IMG/VR virus record: IMGVR_UViG_3300049846_001244
Span: 1 to 48,523 of that record
Reading direction: 5' to 3' (one strand)
DNA length: 48,523 bases
DNA from: a virus
The first letter of the stretch is position 1, and every line of letters begins with the position of its first letter. Under the pieces are notes generated by a model. The model saw only the letters and a list, made by a program, of their open reading frames with translations, was not told where the DNA came from and made no database searches. The position numbers were made by a program, and so were the translations under genes. Below are positions 1,605 through 8,744 of the stretch, in pieces.

Positions 1605-1818
1605 TATGGATCACTTAACTATGCAATTGCAATTTCTGGATGACACCACTTGGATGAAATTTGTGTTGTCCAGTTTTATTAGAAATGAATTTGATACTAT
1701 TTTGTATATGAAATTGTGGAGGGAGTATAGAGAGCCAATGTTTTTAAAAGTTGGCAATCAATTTGGATTACCAATATTAGAACAATTGGAGGATAGTATT
1801 AGGTATAAAAATAACTGA
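1597..1818 (+). CDS. Small protein with partial tetrad Leu/Phe periodicity
   Basis: This 73-aa frame begins in the last codons of the DUF2786 gene; ATG 1597 and ATG 1606 are both possible. No family is recognised. The middle shows hydrophobic residues about every fourth position (NEF-DTIL-YMKLW, then EQLEDS), reminiscent of the tetrad repeats in the next two genes, but the match is loose. It sits directly before the decayed tetrad-repeat gene at 1839 and may be a more diverged member of that group. Confidence 0.5.
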   Translation: MGNMDHLTMQLQFLDDTTWMKFVLSSFIRNEFDTILYMKLWREYREPMFLKVGNQFGLPILEQLEDSIRYKNN

Positions 1819-1838: not shown

Positions 1839-2048
1839 ATGGATTTTGATAACATTGAAGTGAAATTTGATAATTTATTAAGGTCTAATTTAGGGCAGCG
1901 CCTGGCGGAGGTGTTGTATGATATATTAGCAGACAGATTAAGGCATGATTTACATAATGAACTTGGGCGTACATTAGGGGACAAATTCTATGGCCAATTA
2001 AAACAACCACTTTGGACAATACTGATTACAAGGGATTCAGAATTATGA
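1839..2048 (+). CDS. Degenerate xxLx tetrad-repeat protein, 69 aa
   Basis: From about residue 12 the protein reads as twelve consecutive tetrads with Leu (once Phe) at the third position: NLLR SNLG QRLA EVLY DILA, then DRLR HDLH NELG RTLG, then DKFY GQLK QPLW. That is the same period and register as the near-perfect array encoded immediately downstream, while the DNA is no longer visibly repetitive. I infer a decayed paralogue. Its TGA stop overlaps the ATG of the array gene at 2045 (ATGA). Function unknown. Confidence 0.7.
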   Translation: MDFDNIEVKFDNLLRSNLGQRLAEVLYDILADRLRHDLHNELGRTLGDKFYGQLKQPLWTILITRDSEL

Positions 2049-2212
2049 ATATTGAGGACCAACTATCGGACCAACTATGGGGCCAACTAAGGGGCCAACT
2101 ATGGGGCCAACTATCGGACCAACTATATGTCCAACTATGGGGCCAACTATCGGACCAACTATATGTCCAACTATTGGACCAACTATATGGCCAACTATGG
2201 GAGGATTTATGA
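2045..2212 (+). CDS. Tetrapeptide-array protein A (12 xQLx units)
   Basis: The 55-aa product is the head MNIE, twelve xQLx units (DQLS, DQLW, GQLR, GQLW, VQLL and similar) and the tail EDL. Each unit is encoded by 12 bp containing an invariant CAACTA. The flanking residues vary among Gly/Asp/Val before Gln and Trp/Tyr/Ser/Arg/Leu after Leu. Similar arrays occur inside cellular DUF6745 proteins (recalled family knowledge); here the array stands alone, about 1.9 kb from a DUF6745-like gene. The start overlaps the previous stop, and the terminal codons supply the ribosome binding site of the next gene. Confidence 0.72.
   Translation: MNIEDQLSDQLWGQLRGQLWGQLSDQLYVQLWGQLSDQLYVQLLDQLYGQLWEDL
2057..2200 (+). 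repeat. 12-bp tandem repeat array A, 12 units
   Basis: Twelve in-frame units of the form GRC-CAA-CTA-NNN. The CAACTA core is identical in all units and variation is confined to the first and last codons. A 58-bp stretch encoding SDQLYVQLLDQLYGQL is shared with array C, suggesting exchange between arrays. Confidence 0.92.
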
Positions 2213-2442
2213 ATATTAATCGAAAAAATGAGAAATTTAGAAAGGCTTTAATGGACTACCCATACCATTTAAGTAATGATCTAAATTTGGTAACTATATG
2301 TGAGGCTAATGATAGGGTCGTGGGACTGTGGTCTAAAACAATTACAATTGAATTGTTTCCAACAACTTATGGTCAAATCCATGGGCAATTATGGAGTCAA
2401 ATGGAAGATGATTTACGAAATCTTCGTAGACGTCCAAAATAG
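2209..2442 (+). CDS. Hypothetical protein with degenerate tetrads at C-terminus, 77 aa
   Basis: ATG 2209 overlaps the stop of array A, and GGGAGG, which encodes the last Trp-Glu of the array, is its ribosome binding site. The N-terminal 50 residues (MNINRKNEKFRKAL, then LVTICEANDRVVGLW) resemble nothing I know. Residues ~54-72 read YGQI HGQL WSQM EDDL RNL, a decayed stretch of the same xQLx repeat, so this may be an array fused to another domain. The gene ends inside the upstream box of the next promoter. Confidence 0.6.
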   Translation: MNINRKNEKFRKALMDYPYHLSNDLNLVTICEANDRVVGLWSKTITIELFPTTYGQIHGQLWSQMEDDLRNLRRRPK

Positions 2443-2474
2443 CCCTTGTAATATGGAACCACATATGCTATACT
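2421..2474 (+). promoter_or_regulatory. Predicted early promoter with upstream TTCGTA box
   Basis: TTGTAA (2446-2451), 17-bp spacer, TATACT (2469-2474), followed by GGTATTATA as at 6769 and 7768. TTCGTAGA begins at 2423, 23 bp upstream of the -35. It lies 42 bp before the frameshifted gene at 2516. Confidence 0.75.
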
Positions 2475-2515
2475 GGTATTATAATGATAGATAAACAAAT
2501 ATAGGAGATAGTATC

Positions 2516-2801
2516 ATGGTGCAGGTAGGGGATACAACTTTTTGCATTAAATTGGACTGATGAGGAATCAGATAATTTTCACTATTTTGTTGAAAAATGT
2601 CATATTCTCAAGATACACCCAGATGGGCGAGTTATGACGCATTACAGCCATTCCATGGTGTTTAAGACCGAAAAACAAGTATTGGAAGAGTGTATTGAGA
2701 ATAATAATGATGTCCTTCAGGGGAAACTTAGAGAAGTGAGGCTCCTACAGGAACGAATAACGAAAGACCTAAACCGATTAAACAAATTAAAGGAGGAATA
2801 A
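2516..2801 (+). pseudogene. Frameshifted small coiled-coil protein gene
   Basis: ATG 2516 follows AGGAGA and a strong promoter, yet its frame stops after 14 codons. The frame one base over is open from the T-run at 2539-2543 to TAA 2801. Removing one T of the five would give a continuous ~94-aa protein whose frame runs MVQVGDTTF into ALNWTDEESDNF. The C-terminal third is a charged helix likely to form a coiled coil (LREVRLLQERI, DLNRLNKLKEE). The break may be a real mutation, a base-call error in a homopolymer or, less likely, programmed recoding. Family unknown. Confidence 0.7.
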
Positions 2802-2812
2802 TAAGAAATCCT

Positions 2813-2862
2813 CTTAGATTATCATAAAAGTGGTTGTAATCTGGCCACCTTTATGATATACT
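2813..2862 (+). promoter_or_regulatory. Predicted early promoter
   Basis: TTGTAA (2834-2839), 17-bp spacer ending TGA, TATACT (2857-2862). CTTAGATT at 2813 resembles the CGTAGATT part of the upstream box at nearly the same distance (21 bp) from the -35. It precedes the small membrane protein gene at 2893. Confidence 0.7.
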
Positions 2863-2892
2863 AGTATTATAATAAATGTTAGGAGAATGATT

Positions 2893-3078
2893 ATGACAGA
2901 TGGAAGAAGGAAAATGAGTGATCCTAATGCCGAGGCATTAAAAAGTGCTAAAATAGCATTCTTTGGAGTGTCAATTGGGACACTATTGGGCTTACTATTG
3001 GTGTTTGCTATAATGCAAATGCCTTTGGTGAGCAATACAATAAAACTTTTAATGATGGGACTCGACCCTGCACTATAA
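2893..3078 (+). CDS. Small single-span membrane protein, 61 aa
   Basis: A charged N-terminus (MTDGRRKMSDPNAEALKSAK) is followed by one hydrophobic helix at residues ~22-44 (IAFFGVSIGTLLGLLLVFAI) and a short tail. It is likely an inner-membrane protein with a cytoplasmic N-terminus. ATG 2893 is preferred to ATG 2887 because AGGAG ends only one base before the latter and seven before the former. It is the first gene after its promoter and is followed after 12 bp by the basic-protein gene at 3091. Function unknown. Confidence 0.68.
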   Translation: MTDGRRKMSDPNAEALKSAKIAFFGVSIGTLLGLLLVFAIMQMPLVSNTIKLLMMGLDPAL

Positions 3079-3090
3079 TATGGAGAATGA

Positions 3091-3375
3091 ATGGAAACAC
3101 AAACACAACAAACGGAAACAACAAAAGCCCCTTTACCTAAAAAGCGAAGGAAATATAATCGTAGGAGTGCCTTTGAAAAGAAGGAATTCCTATCTTTTAT
3201 CAGCCAAACACTAGGAACAAATATAGTTACCAGGAAGCAACTTGTTACCTTGATATCTGAAGGTGATGGGAGACCATGGAACGCATTCTCATTTATTGTT
3301 AATGATAAGGCTTGCTACGTGGCGGGGTCCAGAGGGGTCTATGATTTGACAAAAGTTCCACTAAAGGAGGATTAA
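3091..3375 (+). CDS. Basic-N-terminus hypothetical protein, 94 aa
   Basis: The first 17 residues are Thr/Gln-rich and low complexity, followed by a strongly basic patch (PKKRRKYNRRSAF) that could contact nucleic acid, then a compact segment (FLSFISQTLGTNIVTRKQL and FSFIVNDKACYVAGSRGVY). The C-terminal half looks like a small helix-strand fold, but I cannot assign a family. GGAG a few bases before ATG 3091 is the ribosome binding site. It is probably co-transcribed with the membrane protein at 2893. Confidence 0.65.
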   Translation: METQTQQTETTKAPLPKKRRKYNRRSAFEKKEFLSFISQTLGTNIVTRKQLVTLISEGDGRPWNAFSFIVNDKACYVAGSRGVYDLTKVPLKED

Positions 3376-3404
3376 TAAAATATCACTATCAGGGTAGAAA
3401 TATC

Positions 3405-3433
3405 TTGACGGTGACTAAATAATGTGCTATTAT
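3405..3433 (+). promoter_or_regulatory. Predicted sigma70-type promoter
   Basis: TTGACG (3405-3410), 17-bp spacer, TATTAT (3428-3433), 35 bp before the gene at 3468 and probably also reading the two tRNA genes. No TTCGTA box is visible upstream. Confidence 0.75.
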
Positions 3434-3467
3434 AGTATCAGTAATTAATTATTTTTGGAGAATTTAT

Positions 3468-3776
3468 ATGTTTTATCGACATGGGGATGTAATTTTAAAG
3501 AAAGTGAAAAATGTCCCAACTAAAGCCACTGCCGTAAAGAATGACAAAAGAGTATTGGCATATGGGGAAGTAACCGGGCATTCTCATCGTTTTGTTGAAA
3601 GTCCAGATCCGATGCCTTTCTTTAAATTTGATGACAAAACTTATTGTCAGGTCACGGGATCAAATGCTATGTTGATCCATGAGGAGCATAATGCTCTAGT
3701 TATTCCTGAAGGAGTTTATGAAATTGTCATCCAACGGGAATATACTCCTGAGGGGTGGAAGAAAGTGGTCGATTAG
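3468..3776 (+). CDS. Conserved small protein with GEVTGHSHR and QREYTPE motifs
   Basis: The 102-aa product has landmarks of a conserved family seen in phages, cyanobacteria and planctomycetes: HGDVIL at the N-terminus, YGEVTGHSHRF at ~residues 32-42, LIHEEHNAL at ~69-77 and VIQREYTPEGW near the end. The fold is probably a small beta barrel; the conserved His and Glu residues could bind a metal, but no function is known to me. In cellular genomes I recall it near DUF6745 genes, and here a DUF6745-like gene lies 300 bp downstream, consistent with a functional link. It has its own promoter and GGAG ribosome binding site. Confidence 0.75.
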   Translation: MFYRHGDVILKKVKNVPTKATAVKNDKRVLAYGEVTGHSHRFVESPDPMPFFKFDDKTYCQVTGSNAMLIHEEHNALVIPEGVYEIVIQREYTPEGWKKVVD

Positions 3777-3784
3777 TATAATCC

Positions 3785-3800
3785 GGGCCCATTTGGGCCC
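3785..3800. terminator. Short GC-rich hairpin between CDS and tRNAs
   Basis: GGGCCC, ATTT loop, GGGCCC: a 6-bp self-complementary stem directly before tRNA-Pro. Only two T residues follow, so it is a weak terminator at best. It could also act in tRNA precursor processing. Confidence 0.4.
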
Positions 3801-3802
3801 TT

Positions 3803-3879
3803 CGGAGTGTAGGTCAATTTGGTAGACCGCCCGGTTTGGGACCGGGAGGCTGAAGGTTCAAATCCTTCCGCTCCGACCA
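3803..3879 (+). tRNA. tRNA-Pro (anticodon UGG)
   Basis: A complete cloverleaf is visible: acceptor 3803-3809 pairs with 3869-3875 (one T-G wobble), anticodon stem CCCGG/CCGGG surrounds loop TTTGGGA with anticodon TGG at 3837-3839, the T arm carries GGTTCAAAT, and CCA is encoded at 3877-3879 after discriminator A. It probably supplements host decoding of proline codons in this AT-rich genome. Confidence 0.96.
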
Positions 3880-3885
3880 ATACTT

Positions 3886-3961
3886 TGGCAAGTAGTTCAG
3901 TAGGTAGAACGGGTGGCTGTTAACCACTTGGTCGTAGGTTCGAGTCCTACCTTGCCAGCCA
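3886..3961 (+). tRNA. tRNA-Asn (anticodon GUU)
   Basis: Acceptor TGGCAAG (3886-3892) pairs perfectly with CTTGCCA (3951-3957). The D stem is GTTC/GAAC, the anticodon loop CTGTTAA gives GTT, the T arm carries GGTTCGAGT, and CCA is encoded at 3959-3961 after discriminator G. It is six bases downstream of tRNA-Pro, so both are likely cut from one transcript. Confidence 0.96.
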
Positions 3962-3993
3962 CTAAGAAAATTTTGTGTATATGAATATAATGT

Positions 3994-4022
3994 TTGTATT
4001 GGAGTGCCGGATTTGATATAAT
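3994..4022 (+). promoter_or_regulatory. Predicted promoter for the DUF6745-like gene
   Basis: TTGTAT (3994-3999), 17-bp spacer ending TTTGA, consensus TATAAT (4017-4022). TTTTGTGTATAT about 22 bp upstream is a weak relative of the shared box. Confidence 0.72.
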
Positions 4023-4067
4023 GTTTATATTAGTGATGATTAATCTTTAACGTGAAAGTGAGAACAT

Positions 4068-4943
4068 ATGAGTAAAAAAATCAGCAAATTAACAGATGAG
4101 CAAGTTGCCGGAATAGAACGGGACAAAGAACGGGTCCTAAAACATTTCCTTGATGATGCAAAATTAAATAAAGAAGCCGTGGAACGCATTATGACTAAAA
4201 TGTATCAGGAATTGGGAAAACCACAACCCGAATTCTTTTATGTTGATTCTCCTTTTGCTGCAATCAATTTAATTAATGAAAAATTGAATCTCCCAAAATC
4301 CACATATCATCGCCCATTCCATTGCGGGATATCTGAACTATATTGGGTTGAATTCTATAAAATCATTGAACGTAATGTTGACGGAGTGAATTATGAGGCC
4401 GGACTAAAAAATCGATTAGATGAGTATCATGAATTGATCCTAGCATCGGGTCATATATTTACTTTCGAGGATTTCTGTGTTGTATCAGATCATCCTATTA
4501 GAGTATCATTCAATGATGAAAACCGGTTAAACCGTATTAACGGAAAGGCAATTGAATTCAAAGATGGATATGGCGTTTATGCATTTAATGGAGTTCGGGT
4601 TCCTGAAAAATATGGAAATACTGAACCACATACATGGAACGCCAAGGAAGTTATTTCTGAATCAAATGTTGAAATTCGACGTGTATTAATTGAAGTGATG
4701 GGATATGAGAATATCATTTCCCAATTAGGTGCTACTGAATTGGATTCTTGGAGGGAATATACTCTATTGCAATTTGATTCTCCTGTTGAGGGTGATGAGG
4801 CTTACACTGTCCTAAAAATGACATGCCCTAGCACCGCTCATATTCATGCATTGCGAGTACCACCAGAATTCACAAAAGCACGAGAGGCGGCAACCTGGGT
4901 TAACCATGGAATTGATCCCATGGACTTTGAATCTGAAACCTAA
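4068..4943 (+). CDS. DUF6745-like protein lacking the internal tetrapeptide array
   Basis: The 291-aa product matches the DUF6745 pattern as I know it: an N-terminal helix then VDSPFAAINLIN (~residues 58-70), ELYWVEFYKII (~90-100), FEDFCVVSDHPI (~138-150), a GYGVYAFNGVRVPEKY core (~178-193), EIRRVLIEVMGYENII and the closing RVPPEFTKAREAATW. Many cellular members carry long DQLW-type tetrapeptide arrays between the first two motifs; here that interval is only about 20 ordinary residues, while free-standing arrays lie at 2045, 5545 and 6325. It has its own promoter and is followed by a hairpin. Biochemical function unknown. Confidence 0.8.
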   Translation: MSKKISKLTDEQVAGIERDKERVLKHFLDDAKLNKEAVERIMTKMYQELGKPQPEFFYVDSPFAAINLINEKLNLPKSTYHRPFHCGISELYWVEFYKIIERNVDGVNYEAGLKNRLDEYHELILASGHIFTFEDFCVVSDHPIRVSFNDENRLNRINGKAIEFKDGYGVYAFNGVRVPEKYGNTEPHTWNAKEVISESNVEIRRVLIEVMGYENIISQLGATELDSWREYTLLQFDSPVEGDEAYTVLKMTCPSTAHIHALRVPPEFTKAREAATWVNHGIDPMDFESET

Positions 4944-4955
4944 AAACTATAATTT

Positions 4956-4983
4956 AAGATCCCCGTAATGGGGCGGGGATCTT
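4956..4983 (+). terminator. Strong hairpin after the DUF6745-like gene
   Basis: A perfect 10-bp stem (AAGATCCCCG pairs with CGGGGATCTT) with loop TAATGGGG begins 12 bp after the stop codon. The trailing sequence is TGGGTT rather than a T-tract, so it may be a partial terminator or mRNA stabiliser. It ends seven bases before the next ATG. Confidence 0.6.
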
Positions 4984-4989
4984 TGGGTT

Positions 4990-5178
4990 ATGTATATGAA
5001 TGAACAAAATTTGGATTTCACTTATATGATGGTCGATAGGCTGATTGGCTCTAAATTAGATACAGAATTATGGAATTTATTGTCCCGGCAGTTAGGTAGT
5101 CGCCTCACCGATGATTTATGGTTTAATATATTGGTTGAATTAACATCAAGAGGTAGTGATTTTTCGTATATTCCATAA
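4990..5178 (+). CDS. Degenerate xxLx tetrad-repeat protein, 62 aa
   Basis: After a 14-residue head the sequence falls into tetrads with regularly spaced Leu: SKLD TELW NLLS RQLG SRLT DDLW. I infer a diverged relative of the xQLx arrays and of the 1839 protein. ATG 4990 is used; ATG 4996 is an alternative, and no good ribosome binding site is visible for either. The last codons (SDFSYIP) lie in the TTTTTCGTATATTCC box of the following promoter, so the gene end and promoter share DNA. Function unknown. Confidence 0.58.
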   Translation: MYMNEQNLDFTYMMVDRLIGSKLDTELWNLLSRQLGSRLTDDLWFNILVELTSRGSDFSYIP

Positions 5179-5213
5179 TAATTGTTGCAATGTGGATTTT
5201 ATTATGATATACT
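5158..5213 (+). promoter_or_regulatory. Predicted early promoter with upstream TTCGTA box
   Basis: TTGCAA (5185-5190), 17-bp spacer ending TGA, TATACT (5208-5213). TTCGTATATTCC begins at 5163, 22 bp before the -35. The box and -35 region are nearly identical to those at 6719-6751. Confidence 0.8.
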
Positions 5214-5241
5214 GAAAGTATAATATAAAAGTGAGGTTATT

Positions 5242-5535
5242 ATGGATGAGACATTAGGCAAAAAACTAGCAAAGGCAGCCGGTTATACTGGTAGAAAAAC
5301 TCCTAGATTAATTAAGTTCAATAAGCCGTTCTCCATGGATTCATATTGGGACAGCGGTTCTAGGGATTATTACTATTGGGTGTCCCTCACCGGTGGCCAT
5401 GTTAAAGCCGTACCACAAAATGGTACACCATTTGACCAAAGGAAATGCGTATGTGACGGAATCCCCGAAGGATATGCCCTAGTTCAATTATCCATATTCA
5501 GGGGCAATCATGAAACTCCTAGAATTTACTATTAA
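5242..5535 (+). CDS. Conserved-looking small protein with KAVPQNGTPFD motif, 97 aa
   Basis: I do not know the function. The central part (SGSRDYYYWVSLTGG, then VKAVPQNGTPFD and IPEGYALVQLSIFRG) is strand-rich and looks like a conserved single-domain protein; I have a weak recollection of similar proteins in the same cellular neighbourhoods as DUF6745. GTGAGGT precedes ATG 5242. It is the first gene of a unit that continues into array B, the 5769 and 5984 genes and array C. Confidence 0.68.
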   Translation: MDETLGKKLAKAAGYTGRKTPRLIKFNKPFSMDSYWDSGSRDYYYWVSLTGGHVKAVPQNGTPFDQRKCVCDGIPEGYALVQLSIFRGNHETPRIYY

Positions 5536-5544
5536 GGATGATTT

Positions 5545-5772
5545 ATGAATATTGAGGACCAACTAAGGGGCCAACTATATGGCCAACTATGGGGCCAACT
5601 ATGGAGCCAACTAGGGGGCCAACTATGGGACCAACTATGGGACCAACTAAGGGGCCAACTATGGAGCCAACTAGGGGGCCAACTATGGGACCAACTATAT
5701 TGGCAACAATATGACCAACTAAGGGCCCAACTATCGGACCAACTAGGGAGCCAATTATGGGAGGATTTATGA
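5545..5772 (+). CDS. Tetrapeptide-array protein B (17 xQLx units)
   Basis: The 75-aa product has the same head (MNIEDQL) and tail (LWEDL) as array A with seventeen xQLx tetrads between; one unit is altered to WQQY and the last uses TTA for Leu. AGGATG precedes the ATG. An internal near-duplication (GQLW SQLG GQLW DQL occurs twice) shows expansion within the array. The last codons again provide GGGAGG and an overlapping ATGA for the next gene. The minus-strand frame here (GPIVGPLVG repeats) is a mirror of the repeat and not a gene. Function unknown. Confidence 0.74.
   Translation: MNIEDQLRGQLYGQLWGQLWSQLGGQLWDQLWDQLRGQLWSQLGGQLWDQLYWQQYDQLRAQLSDQLGSQLWEDL
5557..5760 (+). repeat. 12-bp tandem repeat array B, 17 units
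   Basis: Seventeen in-frame 12-bp units with the CAACTA core (one CAACAA, one CAATTA). The first codon varies GGC/GAC/AGC/TGG/GCC and the last TGG/AGG/GGG/TAT/TCG. It contains a repeated block of four units, consistent with slippage or unequal exchange. Confidence 0.92.
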
Positions 5773-5966
5773 ATTTTGAAACAATTGAATTGCTTTTTGA
5801 TTGGGGATTTGAAATTGAACTATACGAAACGATTTTAAATGATATTCCTATCATAGGAATTACTGTCCCCAACATTCAAGAATTGTATGCCATAGAAGAA
5901 TTCTTAAACGAAAATGTTATACCCTATGAGGTGACAAAATTAGAAGATAATTGGCTGATATCATAA
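5769..5966 (+). CDS. Small acidic hypothetical protein, 65 aa
   Basis: ATG 5769 overlaps the stop of array B (ATGA) and uses the GGGAGG encoded by the array's last Trp-Glu as ribosome binding site, exactly as at 2209. The product (MNFETIELLFDWGF, then PNIQELYAIEEFL) is acidic with alternating helices and strands, but I recognise no family. Its sequence is unrelated to the protein that follows array A, so the arrays sit in front of different partners. Confidence 0.65.
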   Translation: MNFETIELLFDWGFEIELYETILNDIPIIGITVPNIQELYAIEEFLNENVIPYEVTKLEDNWLIS

Positions 5967-5983
5967 TTTAATAGGAAACTAAT

Positions 5984-6349
5984 ATGGCAACTAGAGCATT
6001 TATCGCAATGGTAAACGAATCCGATATTTCCGCAATATACACCCATTGGGATGGGTACCCAGACCACCATCTCCCAATATTAGAGAAATCCTTTAACACA
6101 CCAGAAAGGGTAAAGGAACTAATTTCCCTTGGTGATTTATCCATATTAGGTAATCGAATAGTACCAGAAATAGAATTCGATACTCCGGAACGTGATGTTT
6201 GCGTACCATATACCGCCAGAGGCGAGAAATTGAATATCACTAAGGCCTACACTAATCCTGGTTTGGTAAATAAAGCCAAACACCAAGGAGCTGAATACTT
6301 GTATACATTTAAAAAAGACAGACTATGGTACGTCATGAAATTACTCTAA
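5984..6349 (+). CDS. Conserved phage protein of the HWDGYP type, 121 aa
   Basis: The N-terminus MATRAFIAMV with IYTHWDGYPDHHLP (~residues 18-31) and LISLGDLSIL (~45-54) matches a conserved family of unknown function common in T4-like and other phages. Later blocks (FDTPERDVCVPYTARGE, then the closing LYTFKKDRLWYVM) also fit. GGAAAC precedes ATG 5984. The gene's last 8 codons are overlapped in another frame by the start of array C. Probably cytosolic; role unknown. Confidence 0.75.
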   Translation: MATRAFIAMVNESDISAIYTHWDGYPDHHLPILEKSFNTPERVKELISLGDLSILGNRIVPEIEFDTPERDVCVPYTARGEKLNITKAYTNPGLVNKAKHQGAEYLYTFKKDRLWYVMKLL

Positions 6350-6528
6350 GAGACCAACTATGGGGCCAACTAAGGGGCCAACTAAGGGGCCAACTATATG
6401 GCCAACTATGGGGCCAACTATCGGACCAACTATATGTCCAACTATTGGACCAACTATATGGCCAACTATCGGACCAACTATGGGACCAACTAGAGGACCA
6501 ACTATGGGACCAACTAATGGGCAATTAA
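6325..6528 (+). CDS. Tetrapeptide-array protein C (14 xQLx units), unusual start
   Basis: Fourteen xQLx tetrads are preceded by MVRHEITLR and end in GN. Unlike A and B, the array lacks the MNIE head and LWEDL tail. Its only ATG lies within the preceding gene in another frame without a clear ribosome binding site, and the CDS overlap is 25 bp. The product may be made by coupled reinitiation, or the array may be an untranslated remnant that lost its head. Part of the array matches array A closely. Function unknown. Confidence 0.5.
   Translation: MVRHEITLRDQLWGQLRGQLRGQLYGQLWGQLSDQLYVQLLDQLYGQLSDQLWDQLEDQLWDQLMGN
6352..6519 (+). repeat. 12-bp tandem repeat array C, 14 units
   Basis: Fourteen in-frame 12-bp units with an invariant CAACTA core. 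Units 6-10 reproduce a block of array A nearly base for base. The array begins immediately after the stop of the 5984 gene. Confidence 0.92.
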
Positions 6529-6809: not shown

Positions 6810-7514
6810 ATGAACGACCGACGTTATTACATCTCAACCGGCAGCAAGGGTGCTCAATTTACCCTCCGATGTGAATGGCTGGATCGTGGATATCTCAAGG
6901 ACAATTATGTTTGCAACCTCGGCACTAATCCTGAAGTGGCGGTGGAAAAGGCTCGTCGCCTTTCCGGGCAAAAAAGTTTTACGTTTGCCTGCGGTAAATC
7001 CCTAAATCCTTATGGCTCTAATGAAGATTCAAATGATGCCCATGATGGGCATGTTGTGCAATTTGGAAAATATAGGGGCTATGCTATCCTTGATGCAATT
7101 GCAGAGGACCCTAATTGGGTTATGTGGTATGCTGATGATACGTCCGCAAAAGTAGATCCTTGTTATGATGATGAACTGCAATCAATCCGATGGGCTAATG
7201 TTATGGAGCACGAAAGGCGTTCCGAGGAGCGTTACCTTGCATCTTTGAATAGAGCACCAATCACCTGGAAGGAAGGTGATAAAATTCAATTCACCGGTGA
7301 GGTGATTAAAGCCGAATCCGGTCGCGATAAATTTGGATACCATGAAAAATATACAGTTAAGTCCTTCGATGGAAACCTATTCTGGTTTAAGACCACCAGC
7401 AATTCCTTTGCTGATGTTACTATTGGAAGTAAGATTACCGTAAAGGGAACCGTTAGTGGAGTAAAAGATACTATGACGTTTATTAAAAGCCCAAAATGCA
7501 TCAATATCGTATAA
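6810..7514 (+). CDS. FGKYRG (ExoX-C-like) plus OB-fold-like protein
   Basis: In this 234-aa protein, residues 82-110 contain FGKYRG and EDPNWVMWYAD, matching the short domain found at the C-terminus of exonuclease X/RNase T-like proteins and in phage DNA-metabolism proteins. Residues ~151-234 (ITWKEGDKIQFTGEV, FKTTSNSF, GSKITVKGTV) look like an OB fold, suggesting single-stranded nucleic acid binding. The N-terminal ~60 residues are unassigned and there is no exonuclease catalytic domain. It has its own boxed promoter and heads a unit with the 7529 gene. The nucleic-acid role is inference. Confidence 0.65.
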   Translation: MNDRRYYISTGSKGAQFTLRCEWLDRGYLKDNYVCNLGTNPEVAVEKARRLSGQKSFTFACGKSLNPYGSNEDSNDAHDGHVVQFGKYRGYAILDAIAEDPNWVMWYADDTSAKVDPCYDDELQSIRWANVMEHERRSEERYLASLNRAPITWKEGDKIQFTGEVIKAESGRDKFGYHEKYTVKSFDGNLFWFKTTSNSFADVTIGSKITVKGTVSGVKDTMTFIKSPKCINIV

Positions 7515-7528
7515 TGAGGAGACACACC

Positions 7529-7729
7529 ATGGGAATAGATGTTAAAACATTAGAAATTACCGTATCATTAGATGATATTAAACAGATTACTGGAGATGAT
7601 ACCATTGAATTAAGTGAGTTCGACCATGAGTGCCTAATATATGAATTGGAACAAAAGATTACTCAAGAATTCCTCCGTGGTGCAATATTGGAATTAATTG
7701 GTAAATATTCAAATAAGAGATTTTCGTAG
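7529..7729 (+). CDS. Small hypothetical protein, 66 aa
   Basis: ATG 7529 (MGIDVKTLEI) has GAGGAG upstream; an earlier in-frame ATG at 7496 lies inside the previous gene and is rejected. The sequence alternates a beta strand (TLEITVSLDDI) with an acidic helix (LIYELEQKITQEFLRGAILELIG). No family is recognised. The stop codon lies within the TTTTCGTAG box of the next promoter, as in the gene at 4990. Confidence 0.65.
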   Translation: MGIDVKTLEITVSLDDIKQITGDDTIELSEFDHECLIYELEQKITQEFLRGAILELIGKYSNKRFS

Positions 7730-7773
7730 ATATCCATATTGTCCTTGCAATACGGAATCCACTATGCTATACT
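7719..7773 (+). promoter_or_regulatory. Predicted early promoter with upstream TTCGTA box
   Basis: TTGCAA (7745-7750), 17-bp spacer, TATACT (7768-7773), then GGTATTATAG. TTCGTAGATATCC begins at 7723, again 22 bp before the -35. Confidence 0.82.
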
Positions 7774-7830
7774 GGTATTATAGAGTAAATTAGAGGATGA
7801 ATTAAGATTTTTACTGTAAGGAAACAAACC

Positions 7831-8256
7831 ATGGCGTACTTTTCCCAAGAAATGAAAAAAGAATTGGCACCGGCCGTTAATGCGGTTCTAAAAAAATACG
7901 GCGTTAAAGCAACCTTAGCGGTCCACAATCATCTTTCCTTTGTTGTCAATATTAAATCCTCCAAACATGATTTCCTTGGTGTGTTTCAAGCCTGTAATGA
8001 TGAAGAGGCTGAACGACGTGGTATAAAAAAATGTAATATTGGTACGTACCTCCAAATTAGTGAATATCACGTTGCCGATCAAATGAGGAGCCAGGGCAGA
8101 GAGGACCTCGCATGTTTCTTCGAAGAACTAATCTCCGCAATGAAGGGAAATAGATGGTTCGATAAAAGTGATATACAATCAGATTATTTCCATATTGCAT
8201 ATTACCTCGATATCAATATTGGAAAATGGAATAAGCCTTATGAACTTATCAAATAG
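7831..8256 (+). CDS. Conserved phage protein (MAYFSQEMKK family), 141 aa
   Basis: The head MAYFSQEMKKELAPAVNAVL, the middle LSFVVNIKSS and the end SDIQSDYFHIAYYLDINIG with GKWNKPY are hallmarks of a family I recall in many phages and some bacteria, with no established function. The fold appears to be mixed alpha/beta; no catalytic motif or membrane segment is visible. AAGGAAAC precedes ATG 7831. It is co-transcribed with the cREC-like gene ten bases downstream. Confidence 0.72.
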   Translation: MAYFSQEMKKELAPAVNAVLKKYGVKATLAVHNHLSFVVNIKSSKHDFLGVFQACNDEEAERRGIKKCNIGTYLQISEYHVADQMRSQGREDLACFFEELISAMKGNRWFDKSDIQSDYFHIAYYLDINIGKWNKPYELIK

Positions 8257-8265
8257 TGGACTAAC

Positions 8266-8589
8266 ATGAAAGTATACCTAGACGATATAAGAAAAACTCC
8301 ACCAGGATGGACCAGAACATACACCGCAAAGGAGACCATTGAACTATTGAAAACCGGCAAGGTCACAGAACTATCCTTAGACCATGATCTAAACCTCATA
8401 GATGCTAATGACAAGGAAGAAACCGGCTATGATGTCCTACTATGGATGGAGAAGGAGGTCTTTATGAATCACAATGTAAAGGTGGTGCCTAAGGCGATTC
8501 ATTTGCACACTGATAATGCTGTTGGTAAGGCAAAGATGAGGAAGGCCGTGGAGGTAATAATGAGGAAAGTGGAATCATTGGGGGAATAA
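8266..8589 (+). CDS. Cyclic-phosphate processing receiver-like (cREC) protein, 107 aa
   Basis: The layout of a cREC/REC-like domain is clear: LDD at residues 5-7 after the first strand (MKVYLDDIRKTPPGWTR), ELSLDHDL at 35-42, TGYDVLLW at 53-60 and IHLHTDNAVG at 78-87. These acidic and His residues match the pattern used to predict that the family acts on cyclic phosphates, which is a published prediction from sequence and not, to my knowledge, shown biochemically. The protein is a stand-alone domain, as usual. A substrate such as a host cyclic nucleotide or RNA 2',3'-cyclic phosphate is speculation. Confidence 0.78.
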   Translation: MKVYLDDIRKTPPGWTRTYTAKETIELLKTGKVTELSLDHDLNLIDANDKEETGYDVLLWMEKEVFMNHNVKVVPKAIHLHTDNAVGKAKMRKAVEVIMRKVESLGE

Positions 8590-8597
8590 TATTGGAG

Positions 8598-8632
8598 CGG
8601 GATCCTGTTTCAGGCAGGATAATGGGATCCCG
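8598..8632. repeat. Inverted repeat with alternative stems
   Basis: CGGGATCC (8598-8605) pairs with GGATCCCG (8625-8632). An alternative inner stem, ATCCTG (8602-8607) with CAGGAT (8615-8620), excludes the outer one. It lies between converging genes and could terminate transcription from either side, although neither flank has a T-tract. Confidence 0.55.
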
Positions 8633-8744
8633 TGATTCCCATTTTGACTTCTACTACCGGCAAACCACCACCCACACGTTGGCCTTCCACTATGATCACT
8701 GTGCGATCAACATCCTCAAAATTTTTGCGGCAAAATTTTTTCAC
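8610..8744 (-). CDS. Possible small minus-strand protein, 44 aa
   Basis: A GTG-initiated frame at 8744 reads 44 codons, including RTVIIVEGQRVGGGLPVVEV, and stops in the inverted repeat. It lies downstream of the 8764-9669 gene on the same strand. The plus strand also has an open frame here (TTG 8592, 65 codons) with unusual C-ending codons. I cannot tell which, if either, is used, and no family is recognised. Confidence 0.22.
   Translation of the reverse strand: MKKFCRKNFEDVDRTVIIVEGQRVGGGLPVVEVKMGITGSHYPA

Follow-up and report, generated by a model that had tools for sequence, protein, structure and literature searches.

The locus described here raises the question of why a short peptide repeat that lies inside a protein in many phages stands beside that protein, in small genes of its own, in others. 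The locus is part of the IMG/VR virus record IMGVR_UViG_3300049846_001244, a DNA of 48,523 bases that is referred to as the window. It comprises a gene for a DUF6745 protein (the core) and three free-standing arrays of a 12-base-pair (bp) unit, which encode tetrapeptides of the form xQLx. With a probability of roughly 0.55, the window holds, in its split form, an undescribed system of phages, in which a constant DUF6745 core works with variable, interchangeable array proteins supplied in trans. A preliminary description of this DNA had noticed the split between core and arrays and had proposed that the arrays act in trans, serve as exchangeable cassettes or are a parasitic repeat; its observation is confirmed, and its interpretation is partly supported, by the analysis presented below.

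The assignment of the core to DUF6745, which the preliminary description had made, was borne out by profile and fold searches. The product of 4068-4943 matches PF20530 well above the cut-off of 27 bits (Table 1), over positions 24-201 of the 206 in the profile, and matches phrog_31813 with 84 bits. Its AlphaFold2 model forms one complete domain with a mean predicted local distance difference test (pLDDT) score of 91, and the best match to this model among viral protein models (BFVD) is the DUF6745 protein of phage LMM01 (E = 1.1e-19), all matches there being DUF6745 relatives or unnamed phage proteins. A fold search of the PDB with the window core and with a fused model returned nothing at E <= 0.001.

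Relatives in which core and array are fused were recovered by searching viral contigs with a degenerate xQLx pattern and phage records with tblastn. Their long tetrapeptide array always occupies the same position, after the (D/S)SP motif and before YW..FY, and has units of the types xQLx, xQVx, SSLx, SELx, xAVx, and xATx. As the preliminary description had stated, cellular homologues share this arrangement: the internal array is present in 7 of the 9 closer ones that were fetched. In the window core, the corresponding interval from DSPFAA to YWVEFY consists of about 26 ordinary residues, and the identity at a lag of four residues is 0.16 vs 0.53-0.94 in fused relatives. Judged by these residues, the window core lies outside the fused architecture, with no tetrapeptide array between the two motifs. 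In the AlphaFold2 model of one fused protein (L134; L followed by a number denotes a locus of this survey), the internal array appears as two long helices with pLDDT of about 50-80; at this low to medium confidence and in a glycine-rich sequence (units of some arrays contain two glycines each), the helices are not a reliable prediction. Two loci add variants of these arrangements. In the cellular contig L249, which has a fused DUF6745 protein, 5203-5916 codes for a separate protein of 237 residues with a DAARDAAW-type tetrad array. In L076 (2-490), an array is followed directly by an apparent DUF6745 tail; the part in between is absent and may have been lost by deletion.

The relation between the two architectures was assessed across viral contigs. 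The window core, used as a single-protein query, found no close relative there, and an alignment of 12 members proved too diverse as a scan query. A scan with a core-only alignment, blind to the arrays, yielded 80 viral loci, which after clustering at 90% identity and addition of the loci found earlier gave 75 non-redundant cores: 38 fused, 34 array-less, and 3 unclear. Of the 34 array-less cores, 26 have free arrays with a 12-bp period no farther than 4 kilobases (kb) away, compared with 1 of the 38 fused cores (Fisher p = 1.5e-11), and the loci of the array-blind scan alone give the same picture (22/30 vs 1/23, p = 2.3e-7). Counted as arrays, there are 95 in the 212 kb flanking array-less cores and 2 in the 258 kb flanking fused cores. 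Both of the latter belong to L245, the sole fused exception, which has an array-less core as well as a second, array-type core, with the arrays between them. Among other periods, 9, 18, and 21 bp gave no arrays in the flanks of either core type, 15 bp gave none beside array-less and three beside fused cores, and the matches at 24 bp were re-detected 12-bp arrays. The split is thus general and not peculiar to this phage. The preliminary description would have fallen with the lack of a DUF6745 match, with cellular homologues free of the array, or with no co-occurrence in other phages; a match, array-bearing homologues, and co-occurrence were all found.

DUF6745 itself is rare in cells, and phages seem to have it more often than bacteria do. 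It exceeds the cut-off in 3 of 398 genomes from the phylum of Methylovulum and in 3 of 379 from the phylum of the Myxococcales bin, and a single scan found 204 viral contig stretches with the domain.

A tree of the 75 core C-termini reveals that the architecture has changed repeatedly, with 11 changes between an internal array and none. Supported branches provide 7 independent contrasts, in which free arrays change opposite to the internal array in 4-7 cases depending on the pairing (mean 5.7) and in the same direction in none. These results bear on the possibility of phylogenetic hitch-hiking, in which a single virus lineage happened to possess array-less cores and, independently, many array genes. 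The grouping of about 20 split loci in one large cluster of the tree is in keeping with such a history, which is nonetheless very improbable in view of the 11 changes, the 7 contrasts without one in the wrong direction, and the recurrence of the association far from the large cluster, in L135/L094, L127/L134, L051/L097, and L183+L193/L174+L221+L053.

Sister loci also have the same unit type in both architectures. The SQLx unit is free in L135 and L151 and fused in their sister L094; xATx is free in L241 and fused in its sisters L253 and L236; DQLx is free in L049, with [DG]QLx fused in the sister L215; and xQVx is free in L184, L219, and L245 and fused in their sister L227. This sharing of repeat type constitutes the strongest evidence that the free arrays correspond to the internal array in detached form and that the array type goes with the core.

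The free arrays look like real genes rather than noise. In L183, L206, and L190, array genes follow one another in runs, each overlapping the next by the four nucleotides ATGA, and begin and end with constant sequences, such as the heads MISVKDQL, MKSVSNQV, and MKLKSV and the tails QLREET and QVWDDIQ; tandem genes with the same overlap and constant heads and tails were also found in L235. An ATGA stop is present in 46 of 110 array open reading frames (ORFs) from 24 loci, of which L201 and L206 are near-duplicates.

In the window, the three arrays of 12, 17, and 14 units given in the preliminary description as small ORFs were recovered by Tandem Repeats Finder at 2056-2202 (12.2 copies), 5559-5761 (16.9 copies), and 6352-6521 (14.1 copies), and codon read-out gave the in-frame unit NNC CAA CTA NNN, that is, xQLx. 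Array gene 1 overlaps at its start with the stop of 1839-2048 and at its stop with the ATG at 2209, and array gene 2 contains one WQQY unit among its 17. Array 3 lacks a visible Shine-Dalgarno site, an MNIE head, and an EDL tail and overlaps the end of the ORF 5984-6349; its translation is therefore less certain than that of the other two. The neighboring frame (MGPT) and the reverse strand of the repeats are open as well, so that an open QL frame is no proof in itself; what speaks for this frame are the heads, the tails, and the ATGA coupling, in the window as in other viruses. Arrays 1 and 3 have 68 identical bases in common, among them a stretch of four complete consecutive units. When the order of units was shuffled 3000 times, such a stretch arose in 6 of the trials, and unit runs have therefore probably been copied between arrays.

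Table 1. Features of the window (positions within the 48,523-base stretch).
Feature	Position	Strand	Remarks
Possible third decayed array, weaker	1606..1818	+	9/10 tetrads, p = 0.008 (uncorrected for 12 ORFs)
Small ORF, decayed tetrad periodicity (L at each fourth residue)	1839..2048	+	ATGA-coupled to array 1
Array gene 1, MNIE-(xQLx)12-EDL-stop	2045..2212	+	ATGA overlaps at both ends
Partner gene phrog_27831 (GEVTGHSH...QREY protein)	3468..3776	+	1e-18
DUF6745 core gene, 291 residues, without internal array	4068..4943	+	PF20530, 82 bits
Small ORF, decayed tetrad periodicity	4990..5178	+	first gene after DUF6745 core
Array gene 2, MNIE-(xQLx)17-EDL-stop	5545..5772	+	stop overlaps ATG 5769 of next ORF
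Array 3, 14 xQLx units	6325..6528	+	no conserved head or tail

More arrays, in a decayed state, seem to be present in two small ORFs absent from the preliminary description, 1839-2048 and 4990-5178, which have a hydrophobic residue in 10 of 10 consecutive tetrads (permutation p = 4e-4 each). Apart from the three arrays, the only repeat with a lag of 12 in the 48.5 kb of the window is located at the start of the contig (1-118), and lags of 9 and 15 gave no arrays over the same length. The contig opens there inside a perfect (CCACTTTTAAGG)8 array, one minus-strand frame of which reads as repeated LKVA after ERLSLA; possibly the assembly was interrupted here by one more array of tetrads. The exact cassette of the window is lineage-specific, as the exact 20-mer of Shine-Dalgarno site plus start was present in only one other viral contig. 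A relative with the MNIE/EDL cassette in about ten copies is IMGVR_UViG_3300049846_001705. A search with the CCAACTA pattern gave 40 matches, mostly unrelated repeats in other frames, and weak Pfam matches of the arrays to Barstar and CvfB were dismissed as chance.

Variation within the arrays is concentrated at two residues per unit. In each of the 28 genomes examined, the variable codons are more diverse than the fourfold synonymous site of the adjacent conserved hydrophobic codon (means 0.45 vs 0.15), which implies either that diversity is selected for at these two residues or that the constant heptamer is constrained as DNA. The heptamer varies from virus to virus (CCAACTA, TCAAGTC, TCAGCTC, TCAATTA, ACAGCTC) under an unchanged amino-acid pattern, which favors selection at the level of the protein. 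The predominance of NNC as the first variable codon suggested a possible diversity-generating retroelement, which was found unsupported, the variation lying between units of one array; no reverse transcriptase was seen, with no search aimed at this enzyme having been made. Additionally, mimicry of DNA by acidic arrays was rejected as a general property, since by eye the arrays of the window look acidic and those of L190 near neutral.

Another reading is that the arrays are a selfish or purely mutational 12-bp repeat, which would spread wherever an open frame permits, within a DUF6745 loop in some phages and between genes in others, and have no common function. In the window, CCAACTA is kept even at synonymous positions; in addition, whole runs of units are copied between arrays, decayed arrays exist, and array 3 resembles an intergenic insertion. 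Such an origin is considered quite unlikely, and of the options in the preliminary description the parasitic repeat is disfavored, because heads and tails are conserved, genes are coupled through ATGA, and free arrays are nearly mutually exclusive with internal ones. The change of heptamer under a constant amino-acid pattern, the near absence of the 12-bp period beside fused cores despite its abundance beside array-less ones, and the excess of diversity at variable over synonymous positions also speak against a selfish repeat.

Under the two-part system that we prefer, the constant part would be the DUF6745 protein, often accompanied by a phrog_27831 partner encoded upstream, and the variable part an array of tetrapeptides, in each of which two positions are conserved (Q with L or V; in some lineages A with T, or S-Q-L) and two hypervariable. 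The array is inserted into the core at its fixed place in the fused architecture, and in the split architecture it is detached, being encoded near the core by small genes with constant ends that number from one to about eight. The window is classed with the latter on the basis of three same-strand arrays within 4 kb of the core, constant ends on two of them, and ATGA coupling. By a Rosetta-stone argument, the array proteins would dock on the core, or take the place of its internal array, in trans. With several arrays per core, they may supply an exchangeable and fast-evolving interaction surface, the repertoire of which could be renewed by duplication of units and exchange between arrays, and the candidate partners of this surface are a host target, a nucleic acid, or, if a polymer is formed, further subunits.

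A different view of the same descent is that the arrays derive from the internal array and now work alone, for example as small structural or host-interacting proteins, with no contact with the core. This appears unlikely, although free arrays do occur 8-14 kb away from the core in the L182 contig and on contigs without a core, and the array-less core, as modelled, would be a complete fold by itself. The repeated loss of the internal array goes together with free arrays of equal unit type beside the core, which is most easily understood if the function of the array is still supplied to the core.

Several observations weigh against a two-part system. In 8 of the 34 array-less core clusters, no array was found within 4 kb, although two of these have arrays elsewhere in the contig; the array is therefore either not always needed or not always recognizable. 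The Microcystis phage MaMV-DC has no 12-bp array in its whole genome of 169 kb. Conversely, L025, L054, L087, and L122 have arrays on a contig without a core, all four contigs being possibly incomplete. The independent pairs give a sign test of modest strength (median p = 0.03, or 0.06 without long-branch rows), the window core itself occupies a long branch in the tree, and array 3 is without a clear start.

The phrog_27831 protein, a small protein with the family pattern GExTGHxH...QREY, is classed from its genomic position as a third component, being a constant neighbor of both fused and split architectures: a relative is found close to the core, usually upstream, in 49 of the 75 non-redundant loci (19 fused, 30 not). 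It has a match in MaMV-DC at 2e-73 and no Pfam family. In the window, tRNA-Pro (TGG) and tRNA-Asn (GTT) lie between the partner gene and the core, at 3803-3961. The same gene-dense stretch also includes a cyclic-phosphate-processing receiver-like domain, cREC_REC (PF20274, 94 bits), at 8266-8589, and a protein with DUF2786 and DUF7168 is encoded at 843-1604.

Among described proteins, the nearest to this locus are the fused DUF6745 proteins (PF20530/phrog_31813), represented by UOF77368.1 of phage MW202476.1 and by cellular members from Methylovulum, Mesorhizobium, and Xanthobacteraceae, which have the same core domain and repeat grammar; their array lies within the core protein, whereas that of the window is detached into several small genes. 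The DUF6745 proteins of the Microcystis phages LMM01 and MaMV-DC (ORF161L in the latter) resemble the window in having a core without a tetrapeptide array and a phrog_27831 gene before it, and MaMV-DC differs from the window in its lack of 12-bp arrays. At 7308-8681 of its locus (L275, about 27.3-28.7 kb of the genome), MaMV-DC has three arrays with a 15-bp period, that is, with five-residue units, together with its core.

Two classes of repeat proteins offer more distant parallels. Pentapeptide-repeat proteins of the Qnr/MfpA type have a short unit, A(D/N)LXX, with a central leucine and variable neighbors and also occur as small stand-alone proteins in phages or bacteria. The window arrays differ from them in a period of 4 rather than 5 residues (12 bp) and have no Pfam match to this family at E up to 1; AlphaFold2 gave low-confidence helices, not a beta-helix, for the tetrapeptide array of L134. 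In TALE, PPR, and PUF arrays, two positions per unit vary and the rest are constant. The tetrapeptide arrays differ in a unit of 4 as against about 34-36 residues and in being separate from the core, and the likeness is one of repeat pattern. They have a hypervariable residue pair in each unit and might form a compact modular recognition code, in which the order of units spells specificity. Phages would then keep libraries of arrays in separate genes, from which arrays would be combined in trans with a single DUF6745 effector core, much as constant and variable parts are joined in other recognition systems; such a code is regarded as doubtful indeed.

The core alone is a member of DUF6745. As a whole, core, partner, and detached arrays match no described kind: PADLOC models gave zero matches to core, partner, or array at E up to 0.01, the NCBIfam search gave none, and a search of the accessible literature, in agreement with the preliminary description, found no account of a system with a core, a partner, and a detached hypervariable array.

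If the proposed reading is correct, phages possess families of small, hypervariable proteins that pair with a constant protein, a constant-plus-variable design of which no description was found. The natural occurrence of fused and split versions amounts to a built-in Rosetta stone that predicts which proteins should bind each other, with L094/L135, L253/L241, and L227/L245 as matched fused and split pairs for this prediction, and it would provide a starting point for understanding the domain of unknown function DUF6745.

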